Source: a virus
Length of the DNA: 64,000 bases
Direction: 5' to 3' (one strand)
Virus record (IMG/VR): IMGVR_UViG_3300017767_002783
Span: 1-64,000 of that record
Shown here: positions 39,269-61,510 of the stretch, in pieces
Layout: every line of letters starts with the position of its first letter
Numbering within the stretch: position 1 is the first letter of the stretch
Program-made: the position numbers and the translations under genes
Notes under the pieces: model-generated
The model's input: the letters and a program-made list of their open reading frames with translations, nothing else
Told to the model about the DNA's origin: nothing
Database searches by the model: none

Positions 39269-40057
39269 ATGATAAAATTGGTAGATTTACTAAACGAAGG
39301 AGTTCGAGATCCAGGTATCTTTAAAGGTATATTCTTGGCTGGAGGACCTGGTAGTGGTAAATCCTATGTTGCAAAGGGTTTATTCGGTATTCCTGAAAAA
39401 ATAAATGTTTCCAAGTATGGATTAAAAATGGTTAATCAAGACCAAGAATTAGAAATGCTTTTAAAGAAATTTTATGGGCAAGATTCATCCGTAGATTACC
39501 TTAACATTCAAAAGTTTCCTGACGAATTATTTAAACAACTTACAGATCCAGATTATGCAGGATATAGTGGTTTACGAGGTTATGCTAAATCACTAAATAA
39601 ACAGAGAATGGCACAATACTTGGAAGGTCGTTTGGGCGTTATTATCGATGGAACTGGTCATAAATTTAAATCCGTACAAAAGAAAAGAAAAAGATTGATA
39701 GATTTAGGTTATGATACTTATATGGTTTTCGTAACAACCTCATTAGAAGTTGCACAGCAAAGAAACGAAACAAGACCACGAGTATTACCAGCAGATGTGG
39801 TAGAGGATAGTTGGAAAGATGTTCAGAAAAATATGGCATTCTTTCAAGGGTTGTTCGGTGGTAGTAATTTTTTAATTGTGGATAACAATAAACACTTAGA
39901 ACCAAAACAGGCAGAAAAGAAATTTAAGATGTTAGTTGGTCAAGGAATTGATAAGTTTATGAAAAAACCAGTTAAAAATAAAATAGCAAAAAAATGGATG
40001 AAACAACAAAGTTTAGTACCAAAAAAAGATTTAAAGCAAATGTTAAAAAGGAGTTAA
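39269..40057 (+). CDS. P-loop kinase (zeta-toxin-like) with N-terminal capsid-targeting-like sequence
   Basis: 262 residues from the ATG at 39269 (CGGAG seven bases upstream); an in-frame TTG six bases earlier is unlikely. The first ten residues, MIKLVDLLNE, match the capsid-targeting pattern with a predicted cleavage after Glu10 (L-N-E). FLAGGPGSGKSYVAKGLF near residue 25 is Walker A; VVIIDGTGHK-like LGVIIDGTGHKFKS and the later R-x-x-x-R pair (QQRNETRPR) fit zeta-toxin/polynucleotide-kinase-like folds. Could phosphorylate nucleotides, nucleotide sugars or RNA ends. Opens the cargo block. Confidence 0.72.
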   Translation: MIKLVDLLNEGVRDPGIFKGIFLAGGPGSGKSYVAKGLFGIPEKINVSKYGLKMVNQDQELEMLLKKFYGQDSSVDYLNIQKFPDELFKQLTDPDYAGYSGLRGYAKSLNKQRMAQYLEGRLGVIIDGTGHKFKSVQKKRKRLIDLGYDTYMVFVTTSLEVAQQRNETRPRVLPADVVEDSWKDVQKNMAFFQGLFGGSNFLIVDNNKHLEPKQAEKKFKMLVGQGIDKFMKKPVKNKIAKKWMKQQSLVPKKDLKQMLKRS

Positions 40058-40058
40058 A

Positions 40059-40361
40059 ATGGCGTTTATAATAGTAGAACCTTGTGTGGGTACTTGCGAT
40101 ACAGCTTGTGTAGAAGTTTGTCCTGTTGATTGTATTCACGGACCTGATGACAGAGAAGGTAGAGGAGATGAGGCAAAGGCAGATGGATTTAATCCTGACG
40201 GAAAACAACTTTACATCGATCCAGAAGAATGTATCGATTGTGGGGCTTGTGAGCCTGAATGTCCAGTTGAGGCGATTTTTGAAGAAGATGATGTTCCTGA
40301 AGAATGGGAAAAGTATACAAAATTAAATTATGAATTTTTTGGTAGAGAGTTCAATGATTAA
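40059..40361 (+). CDS. Ferredoxin (two Fe-S clusters, FdxA-like)
   Basis: 100 residues with AAAAGGAG just before the ATG. EPCVGTCDTACVEVCPVDC holds the first cluster Cys set, in the V-E-V-C-P-V-D-C form typical of 7Fe ferredoxins, and CIDCGACEPECPVEAI the second (C-x2-C-x2-C-x3-C-P). The insertion DDREGRGDEAKADGF between them is longer than in FdxA. Probably an electron donor in the host cell, possibly for the radical SAM protein encoded upstream. Phage ferredoxins are rare outside photosynthesis-related cases. Overlaps the next gene by eight bases. Confidence 0.85.
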   Translation: MAFIIVEPCVGTCDTACVEVCPVDCIHGPDDREGRGDEAKADGFNPDGKQLYIDPEECIDCGACEPECPVEAIFEEDDVPEEWEKYTKLNYEFFGREFND

Positions 40362-40713
40362 ACTTGTGGATATACTTAATGAGTATTCACATAACAACGG
40401 TTCAACGGGCGGTTCGGATGCGGGAGAACCCGAAACAGGTTGGACGAATCCACGAAGAAAACGAAAGTTGGGAGTGGATAGTAGTAAACCCGAGCCTTGG
40501 TTTGAGAAGGGTAGATATACTCAACTTCATTTTCCAAAGGCGGATAATCCATATGATGCAGCAAAAGGTAGAGGTGATGATAAGAGTATTCAGAGAGTTC
40601 AAGTGATAAAGAGAGTTATTAATACTGGACTTAAATATGAAGATTTTTATGACACTATAGCAAGTTGGGATAAATATGGTGGTCAAGATTATTCAACGGA
40701 TTTTGAGAAATAG
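40354..40713 (+). CDS. Small hypothetical protein with capsid-targeting-like N-terminus
   Basis: 119 residues from the ATG at 40354, chosen because it begins MIKLVDILNEYS, nearly identical to the N-terminus of the P-loop kinase two genes upstream. A predicted prohead-protease site follows Glu10. After it comes a Gly/Ser/Asn-rich linker and YTQLHFPKADNPYDAAKGRG, which resembles MQQVDFPASDNIYGGPDS in the protein at 47402. No catalytic motif. Possibly an internal head protein. Eight-base overlap with the ferredoxin gene. Confidence 0.6.
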   Translation: MIKLVDILNEYSHNNGSTGGSDAGEPETGWTNPRRKRKLGVDSSKPEPWFEKGRYTQLHFPKADNPYDAAKGRGDDKSIQRVQVIKRVINTGLKYEDFYDTIASWDKYGGQDYSTDFEK

Positions 40714-40714
40714 T

Positions 40715-41629
40715 ATGATTAAATTAAAACAATTATTAACAGAAGATTGGTTAGACGATAATAAGTGGTATCCTGCTCATACAAGAAAAACATTAGATAA
40801 TATAAAATATGGGGATAAGATAGCACTCTATCCTAAATTACACGAAAAGATGTTTGGTAAAATACCTATTAGTTCATTTCATGTTACTAATCCAGACCAC
40901 ATAAAAACAATTGGTAAGATAATAGGTAAGAAAAAATCCATATCAACATTCACTCGTGCTAACAATGACTCACCACTTGCTAAAGGTAGAGGTATTCAAA
41001 CAGGTACGGGTGGAGTTATATTTTATGTTAGGGGAAACTTACTTGCTAAACGATACATGGACTTCGATACAGTACCCGATAAGACTGGTCGTAGATGGAT
41101 AGAATCACATTACATAACTGGTGATAGAATGATTTTTAAAAATGCTATGAAAAGAGCTGGATTCTTTAAGAAACTTGAAACAATGGAAAATAAAATTAGA
41201 CGAATAGATGCGGTATTTCATGACTTATGGATGACAGATGATGAAATTGAATATGATGAATATAAAAAATTAACAGTAAAAGAAGCAGGACCTTATATTA
41301 GTAAATTTATAAAAGAGTGGTTTGATTGGCAAAACAAGTGGTTGGTAAAGAATAAATCAAAAATAAAGAAGAATCTTATAAATCCAGAAGATAAACCATC
41401 GGCATGGTGGAATGAAATTCTTATATATAATCCTAAGATTATAGATGTTTTTGTAATGGAGAGGATTACAAGGGATGGATATTGGATGCAACAATGGGGA
41501 GACAATAAACCAGGACCTTGGCAAAAAGAAATTCTCAAATATGTCCCCAAGAACAAAATAACAATCGGTACACCAGCAAAATTTAGAAAATGGTACAAGG
41601 ACAGAGAAGGAATAATAGACCAAGTATGA
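40715..41629 (+). CDS. Unrecognised putative internal head protein, weakly ADP-ribosyltransferase-like
   Basis: 304 residues from the ATG at 40715, one base after the preceding stop. MIKLKQLLTEDW gives the capsid-targeting pattern with L-T-E at Glu10. The next part reads FHVTNPDHI, SISTFTRANND, GGVIFYVRGNL and KTGRRWIESHY; an early strand, an S-x-S-T-like element and a later Glu are reminiscent of the R-S-E order of ADP-ribosyltransferases, such as T4 Alt, which is also a packaged protein with a capsid-targeting sequence. The match is weak: the E-x-E is not clear. Similar proteins occur in marine phages without known function. Confidence 0.5.
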   Translation: MIKLKQLLTEDWLDDNKWYPAHTRKTLDNIKYGDKIALYPKLHEKMFGKIPISSFHVTNPDHIKTIGKIIGKKKSISTFTRANNDSPLAKGRGIQTGTGGVIFYVRGNLLAKRYMDFDTVPDKTGRRWIESHYITGDRMIFKNAMKRAGFFKKLETMENKIRRIDAVFHDLWMTDDEIEYDEYKKLTVKEAGPYISKFIKEWFDWQNKWLVKNKSKIKKNLINPEDKPSAWWNEILIYNPKIIDVFVMERITRDGYWMQQWGDNKPGPWQKEILKYVPKNKITIGTPAKFRKWYKDREGIIDQV

Positions 41630-43212
41630 TTTATCTTTCTAATTTAATTCCGTTGAATGAGTATTCTAAATTTAGGCTCAACATCCCCTCTGACATCAGG
41701 AAGATACACAAGCTTTTTAAGAAAAACAAGAAAAAACTTTTTGTTGTGGGTGGAGCAGTAAGGGATGCAATATTAGGAAAGAGTCCAAAAGATTTTGATT
41801 TAGCCACCGATGCTAAACCCGATGAGGTATTACAAATAGCAAAAAAAGGTGGATTGAAAACCGTAGAGGTTGGAAAACAATTCGGTGTCGTGATAGTTGG
41901 TGGACACGAAATAGCAACATTCAGAAAGGATATTGGTAAAGGGAGACGCCCAAGTTCAGTTGATTATACCGACATCGAGGGTGATGTAAAAAGAAGGGAT
42001 TTGACCATAAATGCGTTGTTCTACGATATGGATAGGGGTGAAATTGTAGACTTGGTTGGTGGTATAGCAGATTTAAAAAAGAAGAAGATTCGAACCGTTG
42101 GAAATGCTGTCGAAAGATTTGATGAAGATCCGTTAAGAAAGATGAGGGCATTAAGATTTCAAGGTGCACTCGGTGGTAAGTTAGGTAAGGAAACTGAAAG
42201 GGCACTAAGACAGAATCCAAGTCTTAAAGGTGTGAGTAAAGAAAGAATCAGAGATGAGTTTGTCAAGTCGATTAGAAAGGCAAAATCACCCAAGAGGTAT
42301 TTACAGCTTGCTGATTCGTTAGGATTTACAAAACAGATATTACCTGGATTACAAGTTAAGATTCCATACATAAATGAAAACGATTATATTTTATTTTTAG
42401 CTTGGATTTTACGAAAAAATGATGTAAATTCAATAAGGAAATTAAATGGTTTAGCCTATCCTACTCAAGAAATAATTGATATTCAGTTTTTAAATTCATT
42501 ACAGAATTTTAAACCTGAGAATATTTTTTTGATTAAAAAGTTTCAAGAAAAGACCAAATTGAGTAAAGGTCAAATTCTTAAATGGGGTAAGTACATTGGA
42601 AAAGATTTTAAAAAATTAATTAGATTTAAACTATCGGTAAGGGGTAGTGATGTTTCAAGTGATTTAAAAGGAAGGGACATCGGTAAAGCAATACAAAATA
42701 TGGAAAAAGATAAATTCTTAAATGAAATAGCAGTTCGGAAAAAACCGAAGAAATTCAAAGACATTTATAACGCGTTACCAAGTGACTTGAAGAAACGCGT
42801 GTATAATCTAAAAAACTACGACCAGAGGAGAGATGCACATCCTGAAGGTAATGTTTTAAAACATACTATTGCTGTTACGAATAGGGCACTTAAAACAGGT
42901 GATATAGACTTCGCTCTATCAGCATTGTTTCACGATATAGGAAAAGACTCAACTGCTAAATTACATCCAAAGAAAGGGTTTTGGACTCATTATGGACATG
43001 AGCATGTATCAGCTAAATTGGTTAAGAAATACGCCAAGTGGATAAAATCAATGGGTGGTAATCCACTTGATATTTATTGGATAGTAAAACAACACATGAG
43101 AATGAAAGTATTTGATAAGATGAAATGGACAAAACAAGAAAAGATGAAAAAATTTAGAGCATTTGATAAGTTAAAGAAATTTACAACCTTCGATAAAGGT
43201 GGGAGAGTATAA
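41626..43212 (+). CDS. tRNA nucleotidyltransferase/poly(A) polymerase family protein with HD domain
   Basis: 528 residues from the ATG at 41626 (ATGA). LFVVGGAVRDAILGKSPKDFDLATDA is the G-G-x-V-R-D ... D-x-D polymerase-beta fold core, VKRRDLTINALFYD the R-R-D-x-T-I-N-A motif and RFDEDPLRKMRALRF the A/C-recognition arginines, as in class II CCA-adding enzymes and poly(A) polymerase. The C-terminal part includes HPEGNVLKHTIAV, ALFHDIGKDST and HYGHEHVSA, a complete HD phosphohydrolase. The N-terminus MIYLSNLIPLNEYS fits a capsid-targeting/cleavage site after Glu12. It may repair host or phage tRNA 3' ends, possibly on injection. Confidence 0.85.
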   Translation: MIYLSNLIPLNEYSKFRLNIPSDIRKIHKLFKKNKKKLFVVGGAVRDAILGKSPKDFDLATDAKPDEVLQIAKKGGLKTVEVGKQFGVVIVGGHEIATFRKDIGKGRRPSSVDYTDIEGDVKRRDLTINALFYDMDRGEIVDLVGGIADLKKKKIRTVGNAVERFDEDPLRKMRALRFQGALGGKLGKETERALRQNPSLKGVSKERIRDEFVKSIRKAKSPKRYLQLADSLGFTKQILPGLQVKIPYINENDYILFLAWILRKNDVNSIRKLNGLAYPTQEIIDIQFLNSLQNFKPENIFLIKKFQEKTKLSKGQILKWGKYIGKDFKKLIRFKLSVRGSDVSSDLKGRDIGKAIQNMEKDKFLNEIAVRKKPKKFKDIYNALPSDLKKRVYNLKNYDQRRDAHPEGNVLKHTIAVTNRALKTGDIDFALSALFHDIGKDSTAKLHPKKGFWTHYGHEHVSAKLVKKYAKWIKSMGGNPLDIYWIVKQHMRMKVFDKMKWTKQEKMKKFRAFDKLKKFTTFDKGGRV

Positions 43213-44942
43213 TGGATAAATTAACAAGAGAATTGATAAGAGATTTACTACCCGAAGAAGATAGACCTAAGATTAAAAAGATTGTAGGAATCTATGGTGG
43301 TAGGTATCAACCATTTGGCCCACATCACTTAAAAACTTACAAGTGGTTAAAGTCAAAGGTAGATGATGCTTACATCACCACATCAGACATCAAAAAACCA
43401 CCAAAACACCCTATGAATTACAGAGAAAAACTTCGTCATATGGTAAAGATGGGTGTTCCTAAGAATCGTATTATAAAGGAAAAAGTTCCATTAGTGGCAA
43501 ATAATGTGCTAAAAAAATACGATTCCGAGACTACAGCCGTGATATATATATTTGGAGCTAAGGATGCTGGTAGATTGGCAGGTGGTAAAAAGAAAAGTGG
43601 TGGTTTATCGTATTTCCAAGATTATAGAAAACACAAGAATAATCTAAAAGGATATGAGGAACACGGATACTTTATGGTAGCTCCACATCAATCAGTTAGG
43701 GTTGGTGGAAAAGAAGTTAGTGGAACGGTAATGAGAGAATTACTCGGTTCACCTAAAATAGATGATAAAGAAAGACCTAAATTATTTAAACAGGCATTTG
43801 GTTATTTCGATAAAGGTGTTTATCAAATGATGACCAACAAGTTTAGAAAGTTATTTGAGATCAAAGAAAATTTACTTACAGAAAGATTAGTAGCCGCTAG
43901 AAACAAAGGACACTTGAAGAATGGTGGTAAGACAGCACTAACCACAGGTGGAATAATTTCAAAGTTTAAAGGTAGGGGGGATATATCGGACGCATTTAGT
44001 TTTGCTATGAAGGATTTGGAAAAGGCCATCGGTTCTCTTTCTGAAAAACAAAGAAACAGAATATTCAAGAATGGTAAGGCTTGGATGAATCTTGAGGTTA
44101 TGTGGCCAAAGTCATCTAATGTGATAAATTATGACAAGGCAGAAATCGTATTTCACGGAGCACTCGAATATGATGATGAAGGAAATGCAATTGGAGAGGT
44201 CAAAGATAGTGCAAGAATGTTAGCTGGTATGATTAAACAAGTCAACCAAAACATACAGAAACGATATAAGATTGGAAAACCTAATTTTTTAACCGTACCT
44301 AAACATCAAAATTTTGAAAAGAAGAAAAAGTATTTTATAAATAAGTTAAATAGATTACAGAAACAATATAACTTAAAAGATAGTGATTCACTTTCAGTAT
44401 ATCACCAAACCTATTGGGAAGAATTTATATTTAATGCAGCAAAACAACACGGATTTACAATTCCAAAGGCACCATTAAAAAAATTAACTAAAAGATGGGC
44501 ATTTTTTGATAAGTCGTATAAAGTTCCAATGATTAAAAAAGATTTTAAAAATCATCCTGAATTTTTAGATTGGGTATTGACTACGGATAAAGTAGACCAC
44601 GCAAAAATGGTTAAAAAGAATATGAAACCATTTGAGGAATTGTTCTTTGAAGTTGGTGCAGAAATAATGACAAATGTAAGTGGTTGGTTAGCAGCAAATC
44701 CTGACTCTACGGTTCAACGAGTAAAGAAACAATTAGATGCAGCAATTAAAGATGTGAGAAGTAAAAAGGATTTGAAAAAACTTAACACATTAAAATTACA
44801 ATTGGATAAATTAAATAAGATTGGTGGTCTGAAGGCAATAGTTCCAAGTGAAGGAATAGTTTTTAAATACAACGGAAAGACATTTAAATTTACAGGAGCA
44901 TTTGCACCTATTAATCAAATAACAGGATTGATGACATTCTAA
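43212..44942 (+). CDS. NMNAT-like nucleotidyltransferase fused to the C-terminal half of a ligase-like protein
   Basis: 576 residues. VGIYGGRYQPFGPHHLKTYKW (residues ~19-39) is a nucleotidylyltransferase G-x-(F/Y)-x-P-x-H-x-x-H motif; SVRVGGKEVSGTVMRELL is the matching later S-x-T-x-(V/I)-R segment. After NLLTE (Glu224) the protein abruptly becomes LVAARNKGHLKNGGKTAL, followed by AWMNLEVMWP and AEIVFHGALEYDDEG, which I recognise as the interior of a covalent-nucleotidyltransferase/ligase-like marine phage protein whose K-x-D-G motif is missing here and lies at the end of the gene at 46653. N-terminal DLLPE may be a capsid cleavage site. Fusion and loss are directly visible; ligase activity is inferred. 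Confidence 0.72.
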   Translation: MDKLTRELIRDLLPEEDRPKIKKIVGIYGGRYQPFGPHHLKTYKWLKSKVDDAYITTSDIKKPPKHPMNYREKLRHMVKMGVPKNRIIKEKVPLVANNVLKKYDSETTAVIYIFGAKDAGRLAGGKKKSGGLSYFQDYRKHKNNLKGYEEHGYFMVAPHQSVRVGGKEVSGTVMRELLGSPKIDDKERPKLFKQAFGYFDKGVYQMMTNKFRKLFEIKENLLTERLVAARNKGHLKNGGKTALTTGGIISKFKGRGDISDAFSFAMKDLEKAIGSLSEKQRNRIFKNGKAWMNLEVMWPKSSNVINYDKAEIVFHGALEYDDEGNAIGEVKDSARMLAGMIKQVNQNIQKRYKIGKPNFLTVPKHQNFEKKKKYFINKLNRLQKQYNLKDSDSLSVYHQTYWEEFIFNAAKQHGFTIPKAPLKKLTKRWAFFDKSYKVPMIKKDFKNHPEFLDWVLTTDKVDHAKMVKKNMKPFEELFFEVGAEIMTNVSGWLAANPDSTVQRVKKQLDAAIKDVRSKKDLKKLNTLKLQLDKLNKIGGLKAIVPSEGIVFKYNGKTFKFTGAFAPINQITGLMTF

Positions 44943-45844: not shown

Positions 45845-46105
45845 GTGATTAAAATGAAGAAAATATTAGAAGAAAAGGTAGACCTTGATGATATTTCTAT
45901 GAATCACCAAAAATTACTAAGGGTTGGAAGTAATTACATTTATAAGGCACGAGATGGGAAACTTTGGTATGAACTTGAGGATGATATTAAAAAGAGTAAG
46001 AATAGAACTTTAATGAGATACTTTAAAAAATATGATGAAGCTCGTCTTAAACTTCAAAATGCTGGTGCAATGTTAACCAGGGCATTTGATTTGGAAAAAA
46101 GATGA
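45845..46105 (+). CDS. Small hypothetical protein with capsid-targeting-like N-terminus
   Basis: 86 residues, GTG start after CGGAGAAAATAA. MIKMKKILEEKVDL gives the targeting pattern with L-E-E (Glu10). The rest, including LLRVGSNYIYKARDGKLWYELED and MRYFKKYDEARLKLQ, forms a compact beta-hairpin plus helices of unknown function. ATG of the next gene overlaps its stop (ATGA). Possibly a packaged protein. Confidence 0.6.
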   Translation: MIKMKKILEEKVDLDDISMNHQKLLRVGSNYIYKARDGKLWYELEDDIKKSKNRTLMRYFKKYDEARLKLQNAGAMLTRAFDLEKR

Positions 46106-46656
46106 TTAAATTAAAAGAATTAATAGTAGAACGAATTGTAACACATAGTGACTTTCATAAAGTCATAAATATGGCTAAAAAGGCAACTGGCGCTAAACCT
46201 AAAATACCATCAAAAACAATAAAACTTTGTAAAGAAGTAATGAAAGATGGTTTTCATAAATTAGATTATAGAGGTAAGCCTGGTAAGAAAAGACAACCTA
46301 CTAACTTAATGTATCAGTATTACGCTTATGTACAAGGATGGGGACATTCTAAATACAAAAATGATTGGGATTGGAGAAGTGATAAAGGTGATAAGATTTT
46401 AAATTGGGTTCAAACATCAGGATATAATGATGGTATATTTGATTATGATTATTTAAAGTACCATGTAAATACTGATATGCAAGCATCGCAAGTTGTAGGA
46501 AATATCAGACCTGGTTCAAAAGATGAAGAACCAGCTTACTATTTAGTTAAAGATTATTTAAATAGTTTTAGTGCAAGACGAGGTGGTAGAGATGAGGATA
46601 TGTTAGTTGCTAAAGTTCAATGGTGGTTAGATAAAAACAAAGTTGAAACAAGATGA
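46102..46656 (+). CDS. Hypothetical protein with capsid-targeting-like N-terminus
   Basis: 184 residues. MIKLKELIVERI matches the capsid-targeting pattern with I-V-E at Glu10. The body contains KKATGAKPKIPSKTIKLC, NLMYQYYAYVQGWGHSKY and KDWDWRS-like segments, then a C-terminal VAKVQWWLDKNK. Mostly helical and basic. It sits in the cargo block between another targeted protein and the ligase N-half gene. No diagnostic motif; I do not recognise the family. Confidence 0.6.
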   Translation: MIKLKELIVERIVTHSDFHKVINMAKKATGAKPKIPSKTIKLCKEVMKDGFHKLDYRGKPGKKRQPTNLMYQYYAYVQGWGHSKYKNDWDWRSDKGDKILNWVQTSGYNDGIFDYDYLKYHVNTDMQASQVVGNIRPGSKDEEPAYYLVKDYLNSFSARRGGRDEDMLVAKVQWWLDKNKVETR

Positions 46657-47402: not shown

Positions 47403-48088
47403 TGAACATATTCGAAAAAGGATTGTGGAAATTAATTAACGAAGCTTCACCAACGGGTACTTCAGGATATGGTGGATCTGGAATAACCACAGGAGATGCA
47501 TGGCCCGATGGTTTATTTACCAAAAGAGGTGAAAGACGATATGTAGGACCTGCAAGTTTAACTCGTGGAATGCAACAAGTTGATTTTCCAGCATCAGATA
47601 ATATCTATGGGGGTCCTGATAGTCAGAATAATGAAAGACGGGCAAAAAGAGATGCAGGTAAACTTTACAAATATTTAAGTGATCCCGATGGTAATTCAGA
47701 AATTAAATCTGATGAGTTAAGAGATGACACACCACCATTATCACCGAGACAAAGAACTTATGGAATACACGGATTTCACAGAAAACAAGAATATACCATT
47801 CCACCTGAAACAGCAAATTTTGTAACAACTGCTCAAACTTTAATTAAACCAACAACACCACCAGAGGGAACAGAAAGTGGTGGAGTACCAGCAACACCTG
47901 AACCTGGTTCTAAGGAAATGGGAAGTGTAAGTGGATATAGACAAGCACAGCAAGGTGGAGAATCGGTATTTGCAGGTAATAAAAAATTATGGAATAAATG
48001 GAAAGACCACAGAATAATGGGTGCAGTTAAAGGTAGAGAATGGAAAGGTGGTAAGTTAGTTGATTTGTTACCTAAAGGAGTTAAATAA
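47402..48088 (+). CDS. Putative internal head protein
   Basis: 228 residues from a GTG that overlaps the previous stop (TAGTG), with GGAGA about ten bases upstream. MNIFEKGLWKLINEASP contains I-N-E (Glu14), a predicted cleavage site. The mature part is Gly/Pro/Ser-rich and probably extended (TSGYGGSGITTGDAWPDG, PPLSPRQRTYGIHG) and carries MQQVDFPASDNIYGGPDS, shared in pattern with the protein at 40354. No enzyme motif. Context favours a packaged or virion protein. Confidence 0.6.
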   Translation: MNIFEKGLWKLINEASPTGTSGYGGSGITTGDAWPDGLFTKRGERRYVGPASLTRGMQQVDFPASDNIYGGPDSQNNERRAKRDAGKLYKYLSDPDGNSEIKSDELRDDTPPLSPRQRTYGIHGFHRKQEYTIPPETANFVTTAQTLIKPTTPPEGTESGGVPATPEPGSKEMGSVSGYRQAQQGGESVFAGNKKLWNKWKDHRIMGAVKGREWKGGKLVDLLPKGVK

Positions 48089-53768: not shown

Positions 53769-54471
53769 CGGAGATACACTTCTTAATTTAATTCGTGAGT
53801 TAATTAAAAACGAATTGGATGAGGCAAATTCTACTGCAACAGCCGGTGGTGAATATCAAACACCACTTGCATTTAAAGGTGAGAAAAGAAAGGCGGGTAA
53901 GAAAAAGAAAAAGGCTGGATTTGATGGTGGACACCACGATCCGACCATCGGTACTGATAATTTCGAACCAGAGGACCCTAAGTTAAGAAAAGAATCGGTA
54001 GTAAGTGAAGAAAAGAAAAATTCTAATAATCTTTACTTAGAATTTACTGATGCTCTACAAGATTTCAATGACAAATGTATTAAGATAGCTGATAAAATCA
54101 CTAAATTAAAAGGTGATAAGACCGATGGAAAAATTTTAATGAAAAATGTTAAAAAACATCTTATACCACTTAGTAAGTTAATGAATAGTTGGAACAGAGG
54201 AGCTCAAAGTAATCCACATTTAACTACTGAAGGTAGATATCACGCTTGGAGAAATGATAATACCTTAACACCCAAGCAAAAAATTGGAATGGCAATGAGA
54301 GAGACTCGTGATAATCTATCAGAGTTAGAACGAGTTGTCAAGTATAATGTAAAATTAAAAAATGAGTTAAATGTTGACTCAAGGTCATATTGGAAGAATA
54401 CACATAAGGCTTTAAGTAAAATAAGTGAGAGATTAGTTAATTTAGCTAATAAGGTTGGACAACTACATTAA
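53755..54471 (+). CDS. Putative prohead core/internal protein
   Basis: 238 residues, ATG overlapping the previous gene by 14 bases. The N-terminus LLNLIRELIKNELDEANST is an amphipathic helix ending in L-D-E (predicted cleavage), followed by GGEYQTPLAFKG, a motif echoed as VYKTPMAFK in the protein at 59795. A lysine-rich, glycine linker (KRKAGKKKKKAGFDGGHHD) precedes a helical C-terminal domain. Basic internal proteins of T4 bind packaged DNA, so a similar task is plausible. Confidence 0.6.
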   Translation: MSRPNGDTLLNLIRELIKNELDEANSTATAGGEYQTPLAFKGEKRKAGKKKKKAGFDGGHHDPTIGTDNFEPEDPKLRKESVVSEEKKNSNNLYLEFTDALQDFNDKCIKIADKITKLKGDKTDGKILMKNVKKHLIPLSKLMNSWNRGAQSNPHLTTEGRYHAWRNDNTLTPKQKIGMAMRETRDNLSELERVVKYNVKLKNELNVDSRSYWKNTHKALSKISERLVNLANKVGQLH

Positions 54472-54476: not shown

Positions 54477-54665
54477 ATGACATTCGAACAGAACAAAAAG
54501 TCTTTTATGGACTCTTTGTTCAGTATTTCAACGATGCTAAAGAGATGGCATACTGAAATACAGAGCAAAGATGTTGATAAAAACTATATGATTGAAAAGT
54601 TAACTGCGTGGATTAAAAAACTTGAAGAATTAAGACACGATATTATGATGAGGAAAGATAAGTGA
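54477..54665 (+). CDS. Small helical protein
   Basis: 62 residues starting five bases after the preceding stop and overlapping the next GTG start by four bases. Entirely helical by composition (NKKSFMDSLFSISTML, WIKKLEELRHDIMMRKDK). No motif, no membrane segment. Tight packing between head genes supports it as real; a small prohead core component is possible. Confidence 0.55.
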   Translation: MTFEQNKKSFMDSLFSISTMLKRWHTEIQSKDVDKNYMIEKLTAWIKKLEELRHDIMMRKDK

Positions 54666-55000
54666 TAAAACTCGGAGATTTATTAACAGAGGCAAGTATT
54701 TCGGAAGAAATGGGAGAGCTAAAACTCTACATTGACAACGATTCGAGTCTATATAGACAAAGATACATGCCAATATTGAAAAATTTGTCAAAAAAGAAGA
54801 AAAAGGGTAATTATCGTAAAACATTAGCCCAAAAAGCATTCATGTATCTAATTGACGATGGTGCAAAACGATATGTTAGGTCATACGGTGGAAATCACTT
54901 AGATGTTTTCCCAAAAAGACAAAGAAAGCAGTTAGCAAAGGATTATGTAGAAGAATTTGAACAAATTTTTAAAAATCAAGAATATGATTTTATGAGATAG
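54662..55000 (+). CDS. Putative internal head protein with capsid-targeting-like N-terminus
   Basis: 112 residues from a GTG start (GTGATAAAACTC, overlapping the previous stop). MIKLGDLLTEASIS fits the targeting pattern with L-T-E at Glu10, the same cut sequence found in the packaged-type proteins at 40715 and 43212. The mature part is basic (KNLSKKKKKGNYRK, PKRQRKQLAKDY) and contains YLIDDGAKRYVRSYGGN. The high Lys/Arg content fits a DNA-associated internal protein. Family not recognised. Confidence 0.62.
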   Translation: MIKLGDLLTEASISEEMGELKLYIDNDSSLYRQRYMPILKNLSKKKKKGNYRKTLAQKAFMYLIDDGAKRYVRSYGGNHLDVFPKRQRKQLAKDYVEEFEQIFKNQEYDFMR

Positions 55001-55009: not shown

Positions 55010-55810
55010 GTGTCAAAATTTAAAAAAATAATTAAAGAAGATTGGTGGAGTGATTTAAGTCCTGAAGGACAGGCAAAATACTTAAAAAGTAATCCTAATT
55101 CGAAAAAAGCACAATCGGCAAAAAAGAAAAAGAAAGATGAACCATCTGCAGCACCAAGTTGGACTGCTGATGATATGGATTCTATTTTTGGAACAAGAAA
55201 TCAAAGTGGTGGGGGATGGCAAAAACCTCGTAATGATGCTGATAGAGCAGCTGATGATGAAGCAGATGATATGAAAACTCAAGACGCACAAGATTCAAGA
55301 GATGCGGAAGATAGAAAAGATGCAGGTATAAAACCAATTAAAGACGATAAAGATACACAAAGAATGGGATCCAGTGTATTAAGTAAAATCGGTGGTACTC
55401 AAGATCCAGATAGATTAGAATTACAAGGTACACAAGAAGCAGATAATGGTCAAACTATTATTCAATGGAAAGACAAAGAAGATGGAATGATGGTGGGTGT
55501 AGATGCACAAGGTAACATTTATCAAGATGGTGATAGGCAAAATTATGGTATACAAGTTAGCACACAAAGTGATGTGTTTGGAGATGACCAAAATGCACAA
55601 TTATTGTATAAACAAAAGAAAGCCCGTGAAACTGGAGGTACAGATCCATATACAGGTAAAAAATATGATAAACCAACTGGAAGAACTGGAAAAGAATTAG
55701 ACCAAGAAACTCTTACAATAGATGGTAAAGAATATCGTAAAATCAATGAAAGTGTAGAATCAAAACCAAAATATCAATTTTCAGAATTCTACCAAAGATT
55801 AAAGAGATAG
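55010..55810 (+). CDS. Putative internal head protein, hydrophilic
   Basis: 266 residues from a GTG start after AGGAGATTAGC. MSKFKKIIKEDWWSDLS carries I-K-E at Glu10. The rest is very hydrophilic and low in complexity (SKKAQSAKKKKKDEP, DAQDSRDAEDRKDAG) until a beta-rich segment (ADNGQTIIQWKDKEDGMMVGVDAQGNIYQDG), and a C-terminal QFSEFYQRLKR. Probably a protease-processed core component. It immediately precedes the protease gene, where T4 places its core genes. Confidence 0.6.
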   Translation: MSKFKKIIKEDWWSDLSPEGQAKYLKSNPNSKKAQSAKKKKKDEPSAAPSWTADDMDSIFGTRNQSGGGWQKPRNDADRAADDEADDMKTQDAQDSRDAEDRKDAGIKPIKDDKDTQRMGSSVLSKIGGTQDPDRLELQGTQEADNGQTIIQWKDKEDGMMVGVDAQGNIYQDGDRQNYGIQVSTQSDVFGDDQNAQLLYKQKKARETGGTDPYTGKKYDKPTGRTGKELDQETLTIDGKEYRKINESVESKPKYQFSEFYQRLKR

Positions 55811-55820: not shown

Positions 55821-56441
55821 ATGTCAAAACAATTAATAGTAGATTATTTACCTTTTGAGATTTCAAGAGAACAGATAAACGAATCAATTAAACAGAATAA
55901 TGGTCGTTTAGTGGTTCATGGTGTATTGCAGAGGTCAGATGCTAAGAATCAAAATGGTAGAGTCTATCCACATGAGATTTTGGCAAGAGAATCGAGTAAG
56001 TATGATGAGGGTTTCATCAAACAGAAACGTGCAATGGGTGAGTTAGACCATCCTGAATCATCAGTAGTTAATTTACAGAATGTATCTCATAATATTACCG
56101 AAATGCATTGGGAAGGTAAGAACTTAGTCGGTACGGTCGAGGTTCTTGGAACACCAAGTGGTAATATATTAACAGAATTATTTAAAGCAGGTATTAAGTT
56201 GGGTATCAGTTCTCGTGGAATGGGTTCAGTTCAACCAATGAGTGAGGGTGATGGACAACAAGTAGGAGATGATTTCGAATTAATAGCTTTTGATTTCGTA
56301 TCAAATCCATCCACACACGGAGCTTTCTTATATCCTATGAAAGAAAGTGTTGGAAACGAAATACCAATTACCGAAGGTAGAACCTGTGGTAAGTATTGTA
56401 AAGTTGAAAGTATTATAAACGACATAATTAGAGGAGAGTAA
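55821..56441 (+). CDS. Prohead core protease (gp21-like)
   Basis: 206 residues with TAGGAGTAATATA before the [27 protein letters not shown] is the conserved N-terminal strand set, [11 protein letters not shown] carries the catalytic His, and [13 protein letters not shown] the Ser nucleophile (S-S-R-G), as in T4 gp21 and herpesvirus-like assemblins. In T4 this enzyme cleaves scaffold, capsid and internal proteins after L/I-x-E. Its presence makes the repeated L/I-x-E N-termini in this window meaningful. Position before the scaffold and capsid genes is conserved. Confidence 0.9.
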
Positions 56442-56442
56442 A

Positions 56443-56925
56443 ATGGCCAAACTAACAAAATTAATAAGTGAGAGTAAAGTCCTCAAACGAGAGTTTGGTG
56501 AAGCACTTCCTACTTTCAGTAGTGTAATGAAAAAACACCAAGAGAATAAATTTAAAGAAGATTTAGATGCTGTCGGTAAAGAGGATGATGATGTGGATAA
56601 CGATGGTGATTCAGATAAAACTGATGATTATCTAAAAAATCGTAGAAAAGTAGTTGCTAAAGCTATCAAGAAGGATTCTGTAAAAGAAGATGCAATTCGT
56701 AAGCTTGTTCGTAACGAAATTAAAAATATAGTAGAGGCTGATGAGTTTGACCAACCTGTACCTGCACAAATAGAAAGATATTTAAAGAAATTTCTTAACG
56801 CAGTACAAGGTGCTAGACTTAATCGTAGAAGGGTAACAGCAATACTTGGTCGTGTTGTTAAACAGCTAAATATAGAACCAAGTGAATTGATGAGATATGT
56901 TAGAAAAGTCAAAAAGGGATTATAA
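56443..56925 (+). CDS. Putative internal head protein with targeting-like N-terminus and Ca-loop-like segment
   Basis: 160 residues. [19 protein letters not shown] has I-S-E at Glu10, followed by [19 protein letters not shown], nearly the same as the start of the protein at 59025. [16 protein letters not shown] (about residues 48-63) resembles an EF-hand/dockerin calcium loop (D-x-D-x-D-G-D-x-D). The rest is helical and basic ([17 protein letters not shown]). One-base gap after the protease gene. Likely a packaged or core protein. Confidence 0.62.
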
Positions 56926-57166: not shown

Positions 57167-58561
57167 ATGAAACACGAGGAAGAACCTTTGGACGATTACA
57201 ATAAGCGTATGAAAGAATACATTAATGATATAGTCAAACAAGAAATTGTTAGTCTCGGTGAGGAAAAGAAACGAGATTACAAAAAAGAGTATGCTAAATA
57301 TGGTTCATCCACTAAGGCTAAAAAATACAGAGCAGAATTAAATAAGTACAATCGTAAGAAAGGTACTTATGGAAATGGTGATGGTAAAGATGCCTCACAC
57401 AAAGGGGGAAAGATAGTGGGATTTGAATCACAATCTAAAAACAGAGGACGAGCAGAAAAAAGTCGTTTGAAGAAAGAAGATATAAAAGAGAAATCAATAC
57501 CACACGCAAATCCAAATTACAATATGGAAAAGACGATGCAAAAATTAGCAAAGTCATTAGGTATAAAATCCGTTGTGAGTATGTATACTGGTAGTGGTAG
57601 TTTGAGTTATTTTTTAGATGATGATAGAGAAGCAAAGAAACTACAAAAATTTTTAAAAAGGTCATTCAAGAGAGTTCGACTAATACCATTAGACAAATCA
57701 AAAGGTGATGACGCAAATTGGGTAGTAGCGGCAGATATGTTAGGATTTGAATCCATAAATGAATCGGAACAAGATAAGATAAAACAATATTTGATGAAAA
57801 AAGGTGATAATGAAAAAGACGCCACAGAAAAATTAAGATATTACGATATGGTTACAAAGATGTACAAGAAAGCCAACTCCACCAAAAAGGCTGAAATAAT
57901 GTCATCATTATGGGCTAATGAAAATGTAGCACCTAATCACGATGGTAAATCAGCACCATATGGTAGTGGGTATGAAGAAATGGACGAAGGTAGGTCTATA
58001 AAAGAAAATCTAATACCATTTTACAAATACATGGGTGATTTCTACGGAAAAAAAGGTATTTATCCTGATAAGAAAGGTAGAGATTTGAAAGTTGGAGATA
58101 TAAACAAAGCCCTTTCAGTTTATCTCAAAAAGTATTCAAATGACACTTTCACGGGCGATAGTATTGATAGAGAAAGAATCCGTGATATTCTAATCAAGAT
58201 GAGAAAGTTAGATCCTGATTACTCTAAAAAAGAATCCGTAAACGAGGGTGTTAGTCAATCTCAGGCACAAGAGATAATGAAACAACTTGGTGGTAGAAAA
58301 TTTGAAATGTTAATGGGTGTGAAATCAAAGGGTATCGGTAAAGATGGATTAATCCTACATATCGGTAGAAATTCAAAGAGAGTATCACACATCATTATTG
58401 ATTTAGACAGAGGTAGAGATTTATACAACTTAACATTTGGAAAGATATACAAGTATCAATTCAAGGTCATAAAGAAACTTAAAGGTATATATGTAGACCA
58501 ATTACATGATATGATTGAAAAGTATACTGGATTATACACAACATTTGGGAGTAGAAGATGA
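57167..58561 (+). CDS. Multidomain putative internal protein
   Basis: 464 residues. The N-terminal domain, KKRDYKKEYAKYGSSTKAKKYRAEL followed by GNGDGKDASHKGGKIVGFES and SKNRGRAEKSRLK, resembles a small DNA-binding (HNH-like, without an obvious catalytic pair) domain recurrent in marine phages. The middle includes a substrate-like repeat region (NEDAKLRY-type: KGDNEKDATEKLRYYDMVTKMYKK). The C-terminal SKGIGKDGLILHIGRNSKRVSHIIIDLDRGRDLYNLTF domain is one I also recall from marine phages. Start uncertain: no ribosome-binding site near 57167. Function unknown. Confidence 0.55.
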   Translation: MKHEEEPLDDYNKRMKEYINDIVKQEIVSLGEEKKRDYKKEYAKYGSSTKAKKYRAELNKYNRKKGTYGNGDGKDASHKGGKIVGFESQSKNRGRAEKSRLKKEDIKEKSIPHANPNYNMEKTMQKLAKSLGIKSVVSMYTGSGSLSYFLDDDREAKKLQKFLKRSFKRVRLIPLDKSKGDDANWVVAADMLGFESINESEQDKIKQYLMKKGDNEKDATEKLRYYDMVTKMYKKANSTKKAEIMSSLWANENVAPNHDGKSAPYGSGYEEMDEGRSIKENLIPFYKYMGDFYGKKGIYPDKKGRDLKVGDINKALSVYLKKYSNDTFTGDSIDRERIRDILIKMRKLDPDYSKKESVNEGVSQSQAQEIMKQLGGRKFEMLMGVKSKGIGKDGLILHIGRNSKRVSHIIIDLDRGRDLYNLTFGKIYKYQFKVIKKLKGIYVDQLHDMIEKYTGLYTTFGSRR

Positions 58562-59025
58562 AAATATCAAGACTAAGAGAAATAATTAAAGAAGAAGTTC
58601 AAAGTGTTCTTACAGAGGGAACTCGTTGGTTGGTTGGTATTGAACAACCAAATGGTAAAATTCTATCCACATACGGACATTACGATGGTTATCCTGAATG
58701 GGCAGGTAAACACTTGAAAAAGTATTATAGAAATCCGGCAGTAGTAAAACAACTTTTAAAACTTGGAAGTGCAGGAATTTCTACAATTGGTAAGAAGATT
58801 AAAGGAAGTAAAGACCATTCATTTGAAAAACCTGAAAAAGATGTAACCGTATTTTATGGTAGAGATAGAGGTGAAAAGGGTAGAATGACAAGTAATTGGA
58901 GAAACAGAGACGCTGTAAAATTTGATAGTGGTGAGGAATATGCTTATATCTACAATATGAAAGAGAAGAAATGGTATTACAAATCACGATATTCAAACCC
59001 AAGAGATTGGACGGAGTTAAGATAG
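58558..59025 (+). CDS. Putative packaged protein with conserved phage domain of unknown function
   Basis: 155 residues, ATGA overlap. MKISRLREIIKEEVQSVLTEG is a basic amphipathic helix ending in L-T-E (Glu20), a predicted protease site. The mature protein starts TRWLVGIEQPNGKILSTYGHYDGYPEW and continues KHLKKYYRNPAVVKQLLKLG, KDVTVFYGRDRGEKGR, a domain widespread in tailed phages (including non-marine ones) but with no function that I know. Here it appears behind a targeting helix, implying delivery with the virion. Confidence 0.65.
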   Translation: MKISRLREIIKEEVQSVLTEGTRWLVGIEQPNGKILSTYGHYDGYPEWAGKHLKKYYRNPAVVKQLLKLGSAGISTIGKKIKGSKDHSFEKPEKDVTVFYGRDRGEKGRMTSNWRNRDAVKFDSGEEYAYIYNMKEKKWYYKSRYSNPRDWTELR

Positions 59026-59426
59026 TGAAAAAATTAAAAGAAATATTACACGAGAGTAAGTACCTTAAAAGAGAGTTCGGTGATAAATTACCGACATTGA
59101 ATAGTGTGACGAAACAACATCAAGATTCTAAAGAACCAATTAACGAATCTAAACTTCCTCAGTTTGGAAAACTAAGTGATGTATCCGATTATCACCGTAA
59201 GTGGGGAGATATGTTTAACGAGTTAGAAAGATTTAGAGATTACGGCCCAACAGAATCCGATATGTATGATTGGAATGATAGAAGTCATTACAACAATGTA
59301 ACAAAAGAATTTCACGCTCATATGGATAAGGTAGGTAAGAAACTCAATTCCGCATTAAGAGATATGGAAAATTCTTGGAAGGTGTGGGATACAATTTTAA
59401 AGAAACATCGTAAGAAAGACAAATAA
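59025..59426 (+). CDS. Putative internal head protein with targeting-like N-terminus
   Basis: 133 residues from a GTG overlapping the previous stop (TAGTG), with ACGGAG nine bases upstream; an in-frame ATG at 58971 would force a long overlap. KKLKEILHESKYLKREFGDK (after the initiating residue) has L-H-E at Glu10 and parallels the N-terminus of the protein at 56443. The rest is helical (HAHMDKVGKKLNSALRDMEN). Probably a prohead core or packaged protein that duplicated within the module. Confidence 0.62.
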   Translation: MKKLKEILHESKYLKREFGDKLPTLNSVTKQHQDSKEPINESKLPQFGKLSDVSDYHRKWGDMFNELERFRDYGPTESDMYDWNDRSHYNNVTKEFHAHMDKVGKKLNSALRDMENSWKVWDTILKKHRKKDK

Positions 59427-59790: not shown

Positions 59791-59794
59791 TTAG

Positions 59795-60811
59795 ATGCCT
59801 TTTAAATCTGAAAAACAAAGAAGATGGATGCACGCTAACAAACCTAAAATGGCTAAAAAGTGGGAAAAAGAGGAGGCTCTAAAGGAAAAGATTCGTGGTA
59901 TTATTAAACGAGAATTAGAGGCAACAAATTCTTCTGCAATACCAGTTTATAAAACACCTATGGCATTTAAAAAATCTACATTTAAGGCAATTGGTATAGA
60001 TGATGAAGATGATAGTGATGAATTATTAGGTGGGTTAAAGGATGTAAGAAAGAAAAACTCTAAGAAAGATAAAGAACAAAAAAAAATGAAAGAAATAAAA
60101 GACCACGAAGGTAAGATGGCAAAATCACAATTGGAAAGATCTATGAAGTATTCTAAGATGATTTACAATATGATACAGAATGTCGATAAGGGTAAGGGAG
60201 TTGAGTTTCCAGCTTGGGTTCAATCCAAACTAACTAAGGCAGAAGATTACTTACAGAGTGTTTTTAATTATTTAGATGGTAAAGACGGATTAGAGGATAA
60301 ATTTCAAGAGGGTGTAACCATAAAAACAATTGTAGAGGGTGTTAGAGTAAGAAATGGTGAATCAGCCAAACCAGGTATGTGGGAAGTTTTTGACAACCAT
60401 TCAGGTAAAAGTATTAAAGTGGTTAAAACAGCATCATCAGCTACAAGGTTAATGAATAGGTTGATGAATAGTGGTCAGTATAACGAAATTGCAACCAAAT
60501 GGGTAGGTGAAACAGTAGATGAAGCTATGCCTATGAAGATGAAACCATTTAGTTCATCAGAGGCAAGACAACTTGTTAACCAAGACATTAAAAAGATGTC
60601 AAAACATTTAGGTAAAGCATCACAACAATCTATTAAACTTATGATGAATGGTGTAAAGGGTGGTAAATATACTGCAATGGATATATCAAGAGGTTTAAAA
60701 GAAGGACCCGCCGGTAGAACACATTTCGGAGAACTTGGTTTTCTACAACAATTGTGGAACAAAGTTCGTGATGGATTTAGAAGATATTCAAAAGAAAAAA
60801 AACTCAGTTAG
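59795..60811 (+). CDS. Putative prohead core or head-associated protein
   Basis: 338 residues. MPFKSEKQRRWMHANKPKMAKKW is a short motif common at the start of phage proteins (P-F-K-S-x-x-Q-R-R-x-x-x-A). It is followed by IIKRELEATNSSAIPVYKTPMAFKK, resembling the LDEANST...TPLAF segment of the protein at 53755. The remainder is helical with KAEDYLQSVFNYLDGKDG and MWEVFDNHSGKSIKVVK. Ends one promoter-like motif before the next gene. Confidence 0.58.
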   Translation: MPFKSEKQRRWMHANKPKMAKKWEKEEALKEKIRGIIKRELEATNSSAIPVYKTPMAFKKSTFKAIGIDDEDDSDELLGGLKDVRKKNSKKDKEQKKMKEIKDHEGKMAKSQLERSMKYSKMIYNMIQNVDKGKGVEFPAWVQSKLTKAEDYLQSVFNYLDGKDGLEDKFQEGVTIKTIVEGVRVRNGESAKPGMWEVFDNHSGKSIKVVKTASSATRLMNRLMNSGQYNEIATKWVGETVDEAMPMKMKPFSSSEARQLVNQDIKKMSKHLGKASQQSIKLMMNGVKGGKYTAMDISRGLKEGPAGRTHFGELGFLQQLWNKVRDGFRRYSKEKKLS

Positions 60812-60815
60812 TATA

Positions 60816-60825
60816 TATTTATAGT
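60816..60825 (+). promoter_or_regulatory. Promoter-like motif TATATTTATA
   Basis: Exact copy of the 10-mer found at 52860 and 61807, in a 33-base gap, ending 19 bases before the ATG at 60845 with TTAAGGAGAAT in between. The shorter spacing would leave only a minimal leader. Candidate late promoter, evidence is recurrence and location only. Confidence 0.42.
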
Positions 60826-60844
60826 TGATTAAGGAGAATCAAAA

Positions 60845-61510
60845 ATGGCTAAATTAAAAGATTTAATTAAAGAAAACGCAATGTTAGGTGGAGTCGTATC
60901 TAAACCTGCATTCTCAAATCTCAATATGGGATTTAGAACACAAAAAAGTTCCACAAAACTTACTGATATAGTAGAGGATGTTTACGGACAATCTACTCAA
61001 AAAGTAAATGTAAAGGAATTTGTACAAGAAATTGGACAATACAATTCCTATGGTAATGAGATTTATCGTGAAGGTAATCTTAAAGAATTAGCAAATAAAC
61101 TTTCTCGTTTAGCAGAAACTGCAAAACAACATACTTTACAAGAAACCGAAGATTGGTTTGATAAAATCACGGTAAATCGTAATATGAAAGAACTAACTGG
61201 TCTCTCTGGTCAATTTAAGAAAGTTGCTACTGAGGCACAGGCATTACAAGAAAGAATGAGTGGTCTATATGAAGATATGGGACATATTCTTGGTAGATAT
61301 TATGAAATTAATGAATCTAATCCTACTGATACTAACGAAAGTAATGGAGTGGAGGCAGACACAGTAAAAGAAGGTTCTTACGAAGATTTCTTTCAGTCAG
61401 CAATGAAAAAATTTAATATAAGTTCACCAGATGAACTTGATGATGATGAAAAAGTAAAATTTTTCAATTATGTAGATAAAAATTATTCTGCAAAATCAGA
61501 AACAGACTAA
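60845..61510 (+). CDS. Putative prohead core protein with targeting-like N-terminus
   Basis: 221 residues, strong TTAAGGAG ribosome-binding site. MAKLKDLIKENAMLGG has I-K-E at Glu10. The body is helical (RLAETAKQHTLQETEDWF, KKVATEAQALQERMSGL) and its C-terminus is acidic (PDELDDDEKVKFFNYVDKN). Immediately upstream of bS21 and the scaffold, so a core component cleaved by the gp21-like protease is likely. Family recalled from marine phages but unnamed. Confidence 0.62.
   Translation: MAKLKDLIKENAMLGGVVSKPAFSNLNMGFRTQKSSTKLTDIVEDVYGQSTQKVNVKEFVQEIGQYNSYGNEIYREGNLKELANKLSRLAETAKQHTLQETEDWFDKITVNRNMKELTGLSGQFKKVATEAQALQERMSGLYEDMGHILGRYYEINESNPTDTNESNGVEADTVKEGSYEDFFQSAMKKFNISSPDELDDDEKVKFFNYVDKNYSAKSETD

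Follow-up and report, generated by a model that had tools for sequence, protein, structure and literature searches.

Capsid-targeting-like leaders and predicted prohead-protease sites on candidate enzyme cargo of an uncultured T4-type phage and its relatives

Leader-bearing genes around a T4-type head module

We analyzed bases 1-64000 of IMGVR_UViG_3300017767_002783, the 65,773-base record of an uncultured marine T4-type phage; this stretch, hereafter the window, carries a run of genes, beginning at 39269, whose products share a short amino-terminal leader that resembles the capsid-targeting sequence of T4 internal head proteins. The plus strand holds 72 of the 74 genes called in the window. 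Left of 39.2 kb, most open reading frames (ORFs) resemble metabolic genes, those for sugars and glycans among them, as judged by ORF reading only; right of it lies a T4-type head module, comprising a terminase-like gene at 49367, a portal-like gene at 50957, an S77 protease at 55821, an acidic scaffold-like gene at 61945 and a gp23-like major capsid protein (MCP) at 63346, assignments among which the protease alone was made by profile. Its Pfam Peptidase_S77 match (Table 1) bears out an earlier note on this DNA, which had proposed a gp21-like protease at that position. About ten to sixteen of the proteins encoded here appear, from their sequences, to be tagged for packing into the head.

All ten starts for which the note had claimed a Glu at residue 10 (39269, 40354, 40715, 45845, 46102, 54662, 55010, 56443, 59025 and 60845) are genuine in-frame starts with Glu10 in every one, and residues 4, 7 and 8 are hydrophobic throughout. 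In gene order, residues 4/7/8/10 read L/L/L/E, L/I/L/E, L/L/L/E, M/I/L/E, L/L/I/E, L/L/L/E, F/I/I/E, L/L/I/E, L/I/L/E and L/L/I/E. The ribosome site of the 40715 start is weak, and the gene caller chose an upstream ATG at 40676. The motif said to lie slightly later in six further proteins is indeed present in all of them, and by itself a motif so spaced counts as weak evidence: [LIVMF]xE ends at residue 12 in 41626, at 14 in 47402 (counted from a GTG start) and at 15 in 43212, and it ends more than once in 58558 (12, 20), 53755 (15, 23) and 46653 (7, 19, 28).

A strict leader, defined by the pattern ^M.{2,3}[LIMFV]..[LIVMF][LIVMF].E, occurs, with starts as called automatically, in 9 of the 35 genes right of 39.2 kb (in 10 once the 40715 start is used) and in none of the 39 genes to the left (right versus left, Fisher 2.6e-4). 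The same pattern matches 18 of 6981 interior positions on the right and 50 of 11643 on the left (0.26-0.43%), and at the higher of these rates about 0.15 of 35 genes would be expected to carry it by chance. For relatives, each search was confined to its 80 best loci, out of 225 for the protease, 143 for NMNAT-ligase, 216 for the kinase and 384 for Ntn. Across 81 loci, consisting of the 80 protease loci (several near-identical to the window) and the tail of the window's own record, the strict leader is found at 138 of 1119 plus-strand genes, at none of 45 minus-strand genes and at 3 of 6125 interior Met residues, the window included. The head-gene clusters themselves lack it (terminase 0/46, portal 0/67, protease 0/81, scaffold 0/23, MCP 0/21). 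Downstream of the leader, a number of small families (56443 and 59025 in the window, clusters 9 and 32 in related loci) share another short motif, K(R)xFG(D/E).LPT.

The leader can be compared with T4 position by position. In T4 (NC_000866), ipII and ipIII begin with MKTYQEFIAE, alt with MELITELFDE and gp24, the vertex protein, with MAKINELLRE, all with Glu10. Of the internal proteins to which the note had likened the set, IPII, IPIII and Alt fit the leader frame, with Tyr permitted at residue 4 of the first two, and ipI does not; altogether 4 of the 10 T4 proteins looked at fit, those that do not being ipI, gp22, gp23 and three others. Mutagenesis in T4 points to residues 4 and 7 mainly for targeting and to 8 and 10 for processing, and gp21 cuts after L/I-x-E (PMC9026906). 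The IDE of the window's MCP, at Glu64, lies close to the LTE of T4 gp23 at Glu65. This leader match, the S77 protease, the MCP site and the comparative cleavage evidence given below support the capsid-targeting interpretation of the earlier note; cutting, packaging, injection and a repair function are what we infer. We consider it probable, with considerable confidence, that the ten leaders and the later variants are T4-type capsid-targeting sequences on cargo that the prohead protease would mature and that would reach the host by injection, in part for RNA repair.

Two enzymes that the note had placed in the tagged set, a P-loop kinase and a CCA-adding-type enzyme, are recognized by Pfam above the cut-offs (Table 1), and the kinase also matches the PHROG polynucleotide kinase family (1.3e-7). 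The CTP_transf_like match of 43212 (0.003, 18.2 bits) falls below its cut-off of 21, which is reached in three of four related polyproteins (21.7, 36.5 and 39.1 bits; the fourth scores 20.9). Catalytic motifs are intact in the kinase (GGPGSGKS), the HD domain (HDIGK) and the RNA-ligase-like protein (KLDG and EGIVFK). For 40715, conserved H, STFT and NEIL motifs prompt a guess at an ADP-ribosyltransferase-like protein; Pfam, PHROG and solved-structure profile searches gave no database match for that family. Between the first two leader genes, at 40059-40361, lies a Cys-rich ferredoxin-like protein with a CxxCxxC motif and without a leader.

Table 1. Candidate cargo genes and head genes of the window (an arrow marks a predicted cut; bit scores are given against their cut-offs)
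Feature	Coordinates	Strand	Leader or site	Remarks
P-loop kinase (AAA_33/Zeta family), KIN module	39269..40057	+	MIKLVDLLNE↓G	AAA_33 6.1e-10, 40 bits vs 27; Zeta_toxin 3.8e-8
Cargo candidate	40354..40713	+	MIKLVDILNE↓Y	No Pfam match
Cargo candidate	40715..41629	+	MIKLKQLLTE↓D	
CCA-adding-type nucleotidyltransferase with HD domain	41626..43212	+	MIYLSNLIPLNE↓Y	PolyA_pol 1.1e-31, 110.3 bits vs 23; HD 5.3e-9
NMNAT/cytidylyltransferase-like module	43212..43883	+	Leader to LLPE	LLTE site at end
RNA-ligase-like C-half (split)	43884..44942	+	Starts RLVAARNKGH directly after LLTE	Motifs III, IV, V
Cargo candidate	45845..46105	+	MIKMKKILEE↓K	Leader in 9/9 family members
Cargo candidate	46102..46656	+	MIKLKELIVE↓R	Leader in 8/8 family members
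Module D7	46653..47237	+	Leader to ILNE↓A	End ELITE
RNA-ligase-like N-half (split)	47238..47402	+	GGAYGHMAHP...EKLDGQNLMISWRN-stop	Motif I Lys
Cargo candidate	47402..48088	+	MNIFEKGLWKLINE↓A	GTG start
Cargo/core candidate	53755..54471	+	...LIKNELDE↓A	
Cargo candidate	54662..55000	+	MIKLGDLLTE↓A	Strict leader in 22/34 family members
Cargo candidate	55010..55810	+	MSKFKKIIKE↓D	
gp21-type prohead protease, presumed cutter	55821..56441	+		Peptidase_S77 3.1e-26, 92.5 bits vs 27 (predicted)
Cargo candidate	56443..56925	+	Glu10 leader	KREFG-LPT motif in common with 59025
Cargo candidate	58558..59025	+	...QSVLTE↓G	
Cargo candidate	59025..59426	+	MKKLKEILHE↓S	Strict leader in 16/24 family members
Cargo candidate	60845..61510	+	MAKLKDLIKE↓N	Strict leader in 10/34 family members
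gp23-like major capsid protein	63346..64000, continues beyond window	+	ARQLIDE↓SSKT	I-D-E site at Glu64

Polyproteins in related loci and leaders in cultured phages

The tagged genes that the earlier note had put together as a cargo set stand, and the larger point that it missed is that the candidate cargo of relatives is a polyprotein. Searches of viral contigs with the kinase, the CCA enzyme and the 43212 and 40715 proteins, some of them confined to the best matches, revealed related loci with a single ORF that combines kinase, CCA, HD, NMNAT-like and ligase-like stretches. Using 16 of the 24 module profiles that were built, we recognized 68 complete multi-module ORFs of 528-2463 amino acids in 40 module orders (ORFs were taken as distinct by their last 80 residues, CCA+HD was treated as one enzyme, and 10 CCA+HD-only ORFs were left out). 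At least three modules are present in 59 of these ORFs and at least six in 30; the ligase is the last module in all 62 ORFs that contain one, and [LIVMF]xE falls within residues 5-20 in 62 of the 68. Kinase and ligase modules (KIN, LIG) occur together in 36 ORFs, CCA and LIG in 4, and KIN, HD and LIG in 1. A Pfam scan of four polyproteins detected CTP_transf_like in all four (three above the cut-off), AAA_33 in three (two above), PolyA_pol and HD in two (both above), and no peptidase family; a search for HExxH, the motif of zincin-like metallopeptidases, found it in one complete ORF out of 68. Single tagged genes predominate in the lineage closest to the window, and only two window ORFs join different modules, with the NMNAT-like module and the ligase C-half as first and second parts of 43212, and D7 followed by the ligase N-half at the end of 46653.

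Of 75 distinct internal junctions, 65 have Glu immediately before the module (KIN 20/20, PRV 10/10, NTN 5/5, SKK 3/3, LIG 27/37), with L, I, V, M or F two residues ahead of it at 64 of these 65; near the N-terminus the corresponding counts are 8/9 for KIN, 3/4 for PRV and 1/1 for NTN. For other modules, [LIVMF]xE was sought in the last 14 residues upstream and found in 72/75 distinct contexts of NMN, 81/81 of D7, 17/21 of VGD, 12/12 of CCA, 9/9 of MEM, 11/11 of TID and 6/6 of MKA. As background, 1.7% of positions in proteins of this type are the end of such a motif, and 18% of random 14-mers contain one. The counts were made after merging contexts of at least 70% identity and discarding those close to an open 5' end, and they leave the GEE and WHP modules uncounted.

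Several leader genes lie between portal and MCP, the position of the T4 core genes, and the leader could accordingly be a core-binding tag of prohead scaffold or core proteins similar to gp67/gp68, which would serve head building and then be mostly destroyed or expelled, without injection. T4 core proteins are cut by gp21, and their fragments mostly exit the head (PMC9026906). We judge this explanation unlikely, given that the same leader is found on enzymes with intact catalytic motifs (kinase, HD, ligase) and that the sites are located at module starts. In one related locus, an intein-like sequence appears to interrupt the kinase just ahead of its P-loop (VHN↓SGKT, the arrow here marking the boundary, L230:1683).

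Similar starts are found in cultured phages. The kinase of Pelagibacter phage HTVC008M begins with MIPFILKE↓GLYDPGIF and that of Methylophilales phage Melnitz-3 with MKTFAELQE↓GVYDPNIF; in Microcystis phage Mel-JY01, NMNAT-like and ligase modules are joined via IIAE↓GG, and AUZ94865 of Agrobacterium phage Atu_ph07 starts with MKWNDLNE and has VTE↓GVNDKHIF ahead of its kinase. An S77 protease is present in all five cultured records examined, that is, these four and MA9V-1. From the block CDS 31-76 of Atu_ph07, 29 proteins are given as detected in virions by mass spectrometry (PMC6102473). AUZ94865 is gp53 in the numbering of that paper, the offset being fixed by gp2 (ClpX) and gp4-5 (topoisomerase), and gp53 together with eight genes of gp54-gp62 with M[RK]W..LxE starts lies inside the block. 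This gene-block position is the sole experimental pointer, and an indirect one, to the presence of such proteins in virions. In the position profile of Atu_ph07 (859 called genes; 714 annotated features), [LI]xE is found at residue 8 in 24 genes, versus about 10 per position. Within about 40.0-49.5 kb of this genome (gp53-gp62), 9 of 10 genes start with M[RK]W..LxE, and seven of about 250 residues are look-alike paralogues; the group is possibly a tagged effector array.

The Ntn-hydrolase-like module and the split ligase

Many polyproteins contain a 286-residue module whose first residue, a Cys, is invariant in eight aligned sequences. Its structural model (pLDDT 58, pTM 0.64) gave six Foldseek matches with E <0.001 at TM-scores of about 0.3-0.5, of which five carry the name of an Ntn-hydrolase, and its apparent fold relatives are bile salt hydrolase, penicillin V acylase, NAAA and isopenicillin N acyltransferase. 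In VIA, the NAAA beta chain matched with Z 13.3 over 192 residues (root-mean-square deviation 4.4 Å), and Cys1 of the model, within residues 1-11 of pLDDT <50, aligns with the start of the mature chain. A cultured homologue matches Pfam AAT at 1.2e-4, with 22.3 bits, below the cut-off of 23.2. In Ntn-hydrolases of this type, the amino-terminal Cys is the nucleophile and should need a free N-terminus.

Among the best 80 of the 384 Ntn loci (79 hits, 51 distinct contexts), hydrophobic-x-Glu directly precedes the Cys in 28 of 28 close-lineage contexts; of the 23 distant contexts, 21 have Ala, Ser, Gly or Met before the Cys and two (L425, L427) have hydrophobic-x-Glu. S77 was detected in 1 of 24 distant records, that one being L425, and in 7 of 16 close records (one a partial gene at a contig end), which amounts to 8 of 18 records with an E↓C junction versus 0 of 22 others (Fisher 5.7e-4). 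Because the records are fragmentary and belong largely to one clade, this co-occurrence is a strong hint, not proof. Five contexts in which no other module precedes this one in the ORF retain a leader of the MKKHIEE↓C type, and a standalone copy in the cultured Chryseobacterium phage MA9V-1 reads MTSANNNEFLNE↓C, with an S77 protease in the same record. In MA9V-1 (OR050627.1, 126501-130544), the S77 prohead protease is annotated within a single, very long protein of some 1350 residues.

NAAA and isopenicillin N acyltransferase are known to activate themselves by autoproteolysis, precursor structures are among the fold matches, and small residues precede the Cys in most distant copies; the module might thus free its own Cys by autocatalysis, and the E↓C junction would then be uninformative on S77. 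We regard this as a real but distinctly less probable alternative, because hydrophobic-x-Glu is invariant in the close lineage and is the same motif as at the other junctions, because S77 is detected solely among the E↓C records, and because the leader is kept in the ORF-first contexts and in MA9V-1, although Met-Cys could suffice there.

The last module of most polyproteins resembles an RNA ligase: motifs I (KxDG), III (E), IV (EGIVFK, of the EGxxxK type) and V (K) are invariant in 24 ligase-like sequences. T4 Rnl2 is the best entry in the VIA second-look fold list (Z 5.5), which contains many RNA ligases with all rows at Z <8, and it is also the best Foldseek match, a weak one (E 0.41); Pfam RNA_ligase matches at 0.045, below the cut-off. 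Sequence-profile searches of solved structures returned 10 rows for the ligase, 0 for the Ntn module and 1 for 40715, none with E <0.01. As in the window, the ligase is split in many relatives, and our loci contain 41 distinct intact ligase junctions, 25 N-halves and 31 C-halves. The 25 distinct N-halves stop just past motif I, one to three residues after SW, and in all 31 C-halves [LIM]xE falls at the break or no more than a few residues from it, in 22 directly before the (G)KL/RLV/KLV/GLV of the native strand and in nine before a short AT(G) insert; one of 32 C-side rows (L218) was set aside as intein-like. Cleavage at these sites would regenerate the partner half at the native break or close to it. 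In L218, the intein-like sequence appears to interrupt the ligase at motif I (VHN↓TDGQ, L218:12662). The ligase was found in only two genome contigs, L455 and L456, from a Flavobacteriales and a Neomarinimicrobiota metagenome-assembled genome, a weak host hint.

The absence of Glu at 10 of 37 distinct ligase junctions was considered as a contradiction of cutting and rejected, given that 19 of 20 Glu-less DNA contexts have an in-frame ATG, preceded at nine bases by AAGGAG in 16 of the 20 and with AAAGAG in 3 (the remaining one, L279, is without ATG). In the polyproteins, AAGGAG lies 5-11 bases ahead of 17 of 2118 in-frame internal ATGs, and 15 of these 17 are the ligase start; the Glu-less ligase starts therefore read as internal translation starts.

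Taken together, the polyprotein junctions, the Ntn E↓C junction and the split ligase support cleavage after the leader Glu. The Glu motifs might also be incidental linker or helix-cap sequence in polyproteins that work uncut as multi-domain enzymes, since hydrophobic-x-Glu is common, as the background rates above indicate, and fused enzymes are common in phages. This seems to us very improbable, considering the exact placement at module starts, far above background, the free N-terminus that the Ntn nucleophile should need, the site at or near the break in every split-ligase C-half, and the internal start at most Glu-less ligase junctions.

Elsewhere in the window, the left half holds one paralogous family of eight large proteins (called at 1174, 2699, 4873, 12785, 22796, 30272, 33077 and 35001; region 1174-37925). 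A near-identity DNA search of 39000-63900 against a phage collection gave no match, and PADLOC gave 0 matches for 7 proteins.

Proposed route of the cargo and comparison with known systems

In the mechanism that we propose, the leader would carry each protein into the prohead core, where the S77 protease at 55821 would cut after [L/I/V/M/F]-x-E and free the mature enzyme in the maturing head; DNA would be packaged around the cargo, and both would enter the next host together. In relatives, one polyprotein with a single N-terminal leader would be cut ahead of nearly every module, so that one targeting event would deliver many enzymes.

The P-loop kinase, the CCA enzyme with its HD phosphohydrolase and the RNA-ligase-like modules fit an RNA or tRNA 'heal and seal' kit that would be ready before phage gene expression. 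Healing and sealing of a cleaved tRNA needs kinase, HD and CCA domains plus a ligase. A review of RNA repair in jumbo phages describes the same logic (PMC7824862). Since KIN, HD and LIG occur together in only 1 of 68 ORFs, the idea of a kit rests on the set of each genome and not on one chain, and we consider this idea about as likely to be right as wrong. The NMNAT-like, Ntn and D7 modules need roles other than RNA repair.

Several observations weigh against this interpretation. Standalone copies of the VGD module, including that at 48088 in the window, start with MAITID or similar without a leader, which means that some relatives of cargo modules lack the tag. In several families, the strict leader is present in part of the members (10/34, 22/34, 11/31 and 16/24), a pattern to which start-call errors possibly contribute. 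In Atu_ph07, the strict leader, even with aromatics allowed at residue 4, matches 2 of 704 called genes in the first 400 kb and 1 of 50 in CDS 31-76, which is no enrichment, and the M[RK]W..LxE variant was recognized post hoc; the genome-wide profiles of G001, HTVC008M and Mel-JY01 have no clear [LI]xE peak near residue 10. The HD boundary has a site in just 5 of 27 contexts; this would keep CCA and HD joined, and few sites are to be expected there if the two remain one enzyme. The start of each module was placed by eye on a single sequence, in most cases directly behind a Glu, so that only the remaining sequences give a fair junction count. Confidence in the Ntn model is low, with pLDDT <50 in the eleven residues that include the Cys; the E↓C records come mostly from one clade, and 10 of the 18, mostly short fragments, are without a detected S77. 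The fold scores of the ligase are low, and unrelated proteins follow close behind in the VIA list.

On this balance, we give roughly an equal chance of being right or wrong to the fuller proposal of a T4-type lineage with a cargo polyprotein cut in the head, in which the cut would activate an Ntn-hydrolase by its N-terminal Cys, complete a ligase from two tagged halves, and release an injected RNA-repair kit that undoes tRNA cleavage before phage gene expression, the cargo shifting in evolution between single genes with a tag and modules of a polyprotein. Were this true, the gp21-type protease would be a general cargo-release protease, beyond its part in shell maturation, and a ten-residue tag would let phages load many enzymes into the head, singly or as a polyprotein. 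Exact new N-termini would be predicted for the virion proteomes of relatives, and there would be a rule for spotting injected proteins in uncultured phages. Delivery of pre-made RNA repair would also be suggested, which is relevant to anticodon-nuclease defences.

Capsid targeting with gp21 cutting is already known from T4, and multi-domain injected proteins are known from the work on polyvalent proteins. For a polyprotein cut by a prohead protease, we found no such arrangement in open-literature titles and abstract openings, subscription papers and preprints lying outside that search. The RNA-repair enzymes of T4 are made after infection, unlike the apparent virion tagging here. The kinase and ligase logic of T4-type RNA repair is alike (PMC7824862). 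Polyvalent proteins (Iyer et al. 2017, PMC5512222) are alike in combining unrelated enzyme domains in one polypeptide, in their shuffled architectures, in the late or head gene neighbourhood of the phage members and in their predicted injection; correspondingly, the relatives have at least two unrelated catalytic domains per polypeptide and the window has head and packaging genes nearby. Their processing is predicted to be by an embedded zincin-like metallopeptidase, frequent and not universal, whereas HExxH is nearly absent from our ORFs and the sites fit the prohead protease; the available text names RNA ligases only as not associating with their 2H domains (PMC5512222). The head of the giant phage SPN3US likewise holds a large internal cargo with N-terminal propeptides removed by the prohead protease, one of them cut at a Glu (E-124); in contrast to the present case, its nine substrates have 14 sites between them, the N-terminal propeptide exceeds 110 residues in six of eight cases, 42 head proteins are uncleaved, and a polyprotein goes unmentioned in the accessible text (PMC10052503). 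The Dar system of P1 also uses an N-terminal capsid-targeting sequence and carries anti-restriction cargo in the head, but the signal on DarB has 30 residues, and a ten-residue leader common to many genes is not described in the part of the paper at hand (PMC9024508). The closest likeness is to T4 IPII, IPIII and Alt, which share the leader of about ten residues, the hydrophobic or aromatic residue 4, hydrophobic residues 7 and 8, Glu10, an S77 protease in the same head module and a like MCP site. Compared with the T4 internal proteins, many more proteins per region are tagged here, including a CCA/HD enzyme, a kinase and an RNA-ligase-like protein, and the relatives fuse their cargo into polyproteins with internal sites.

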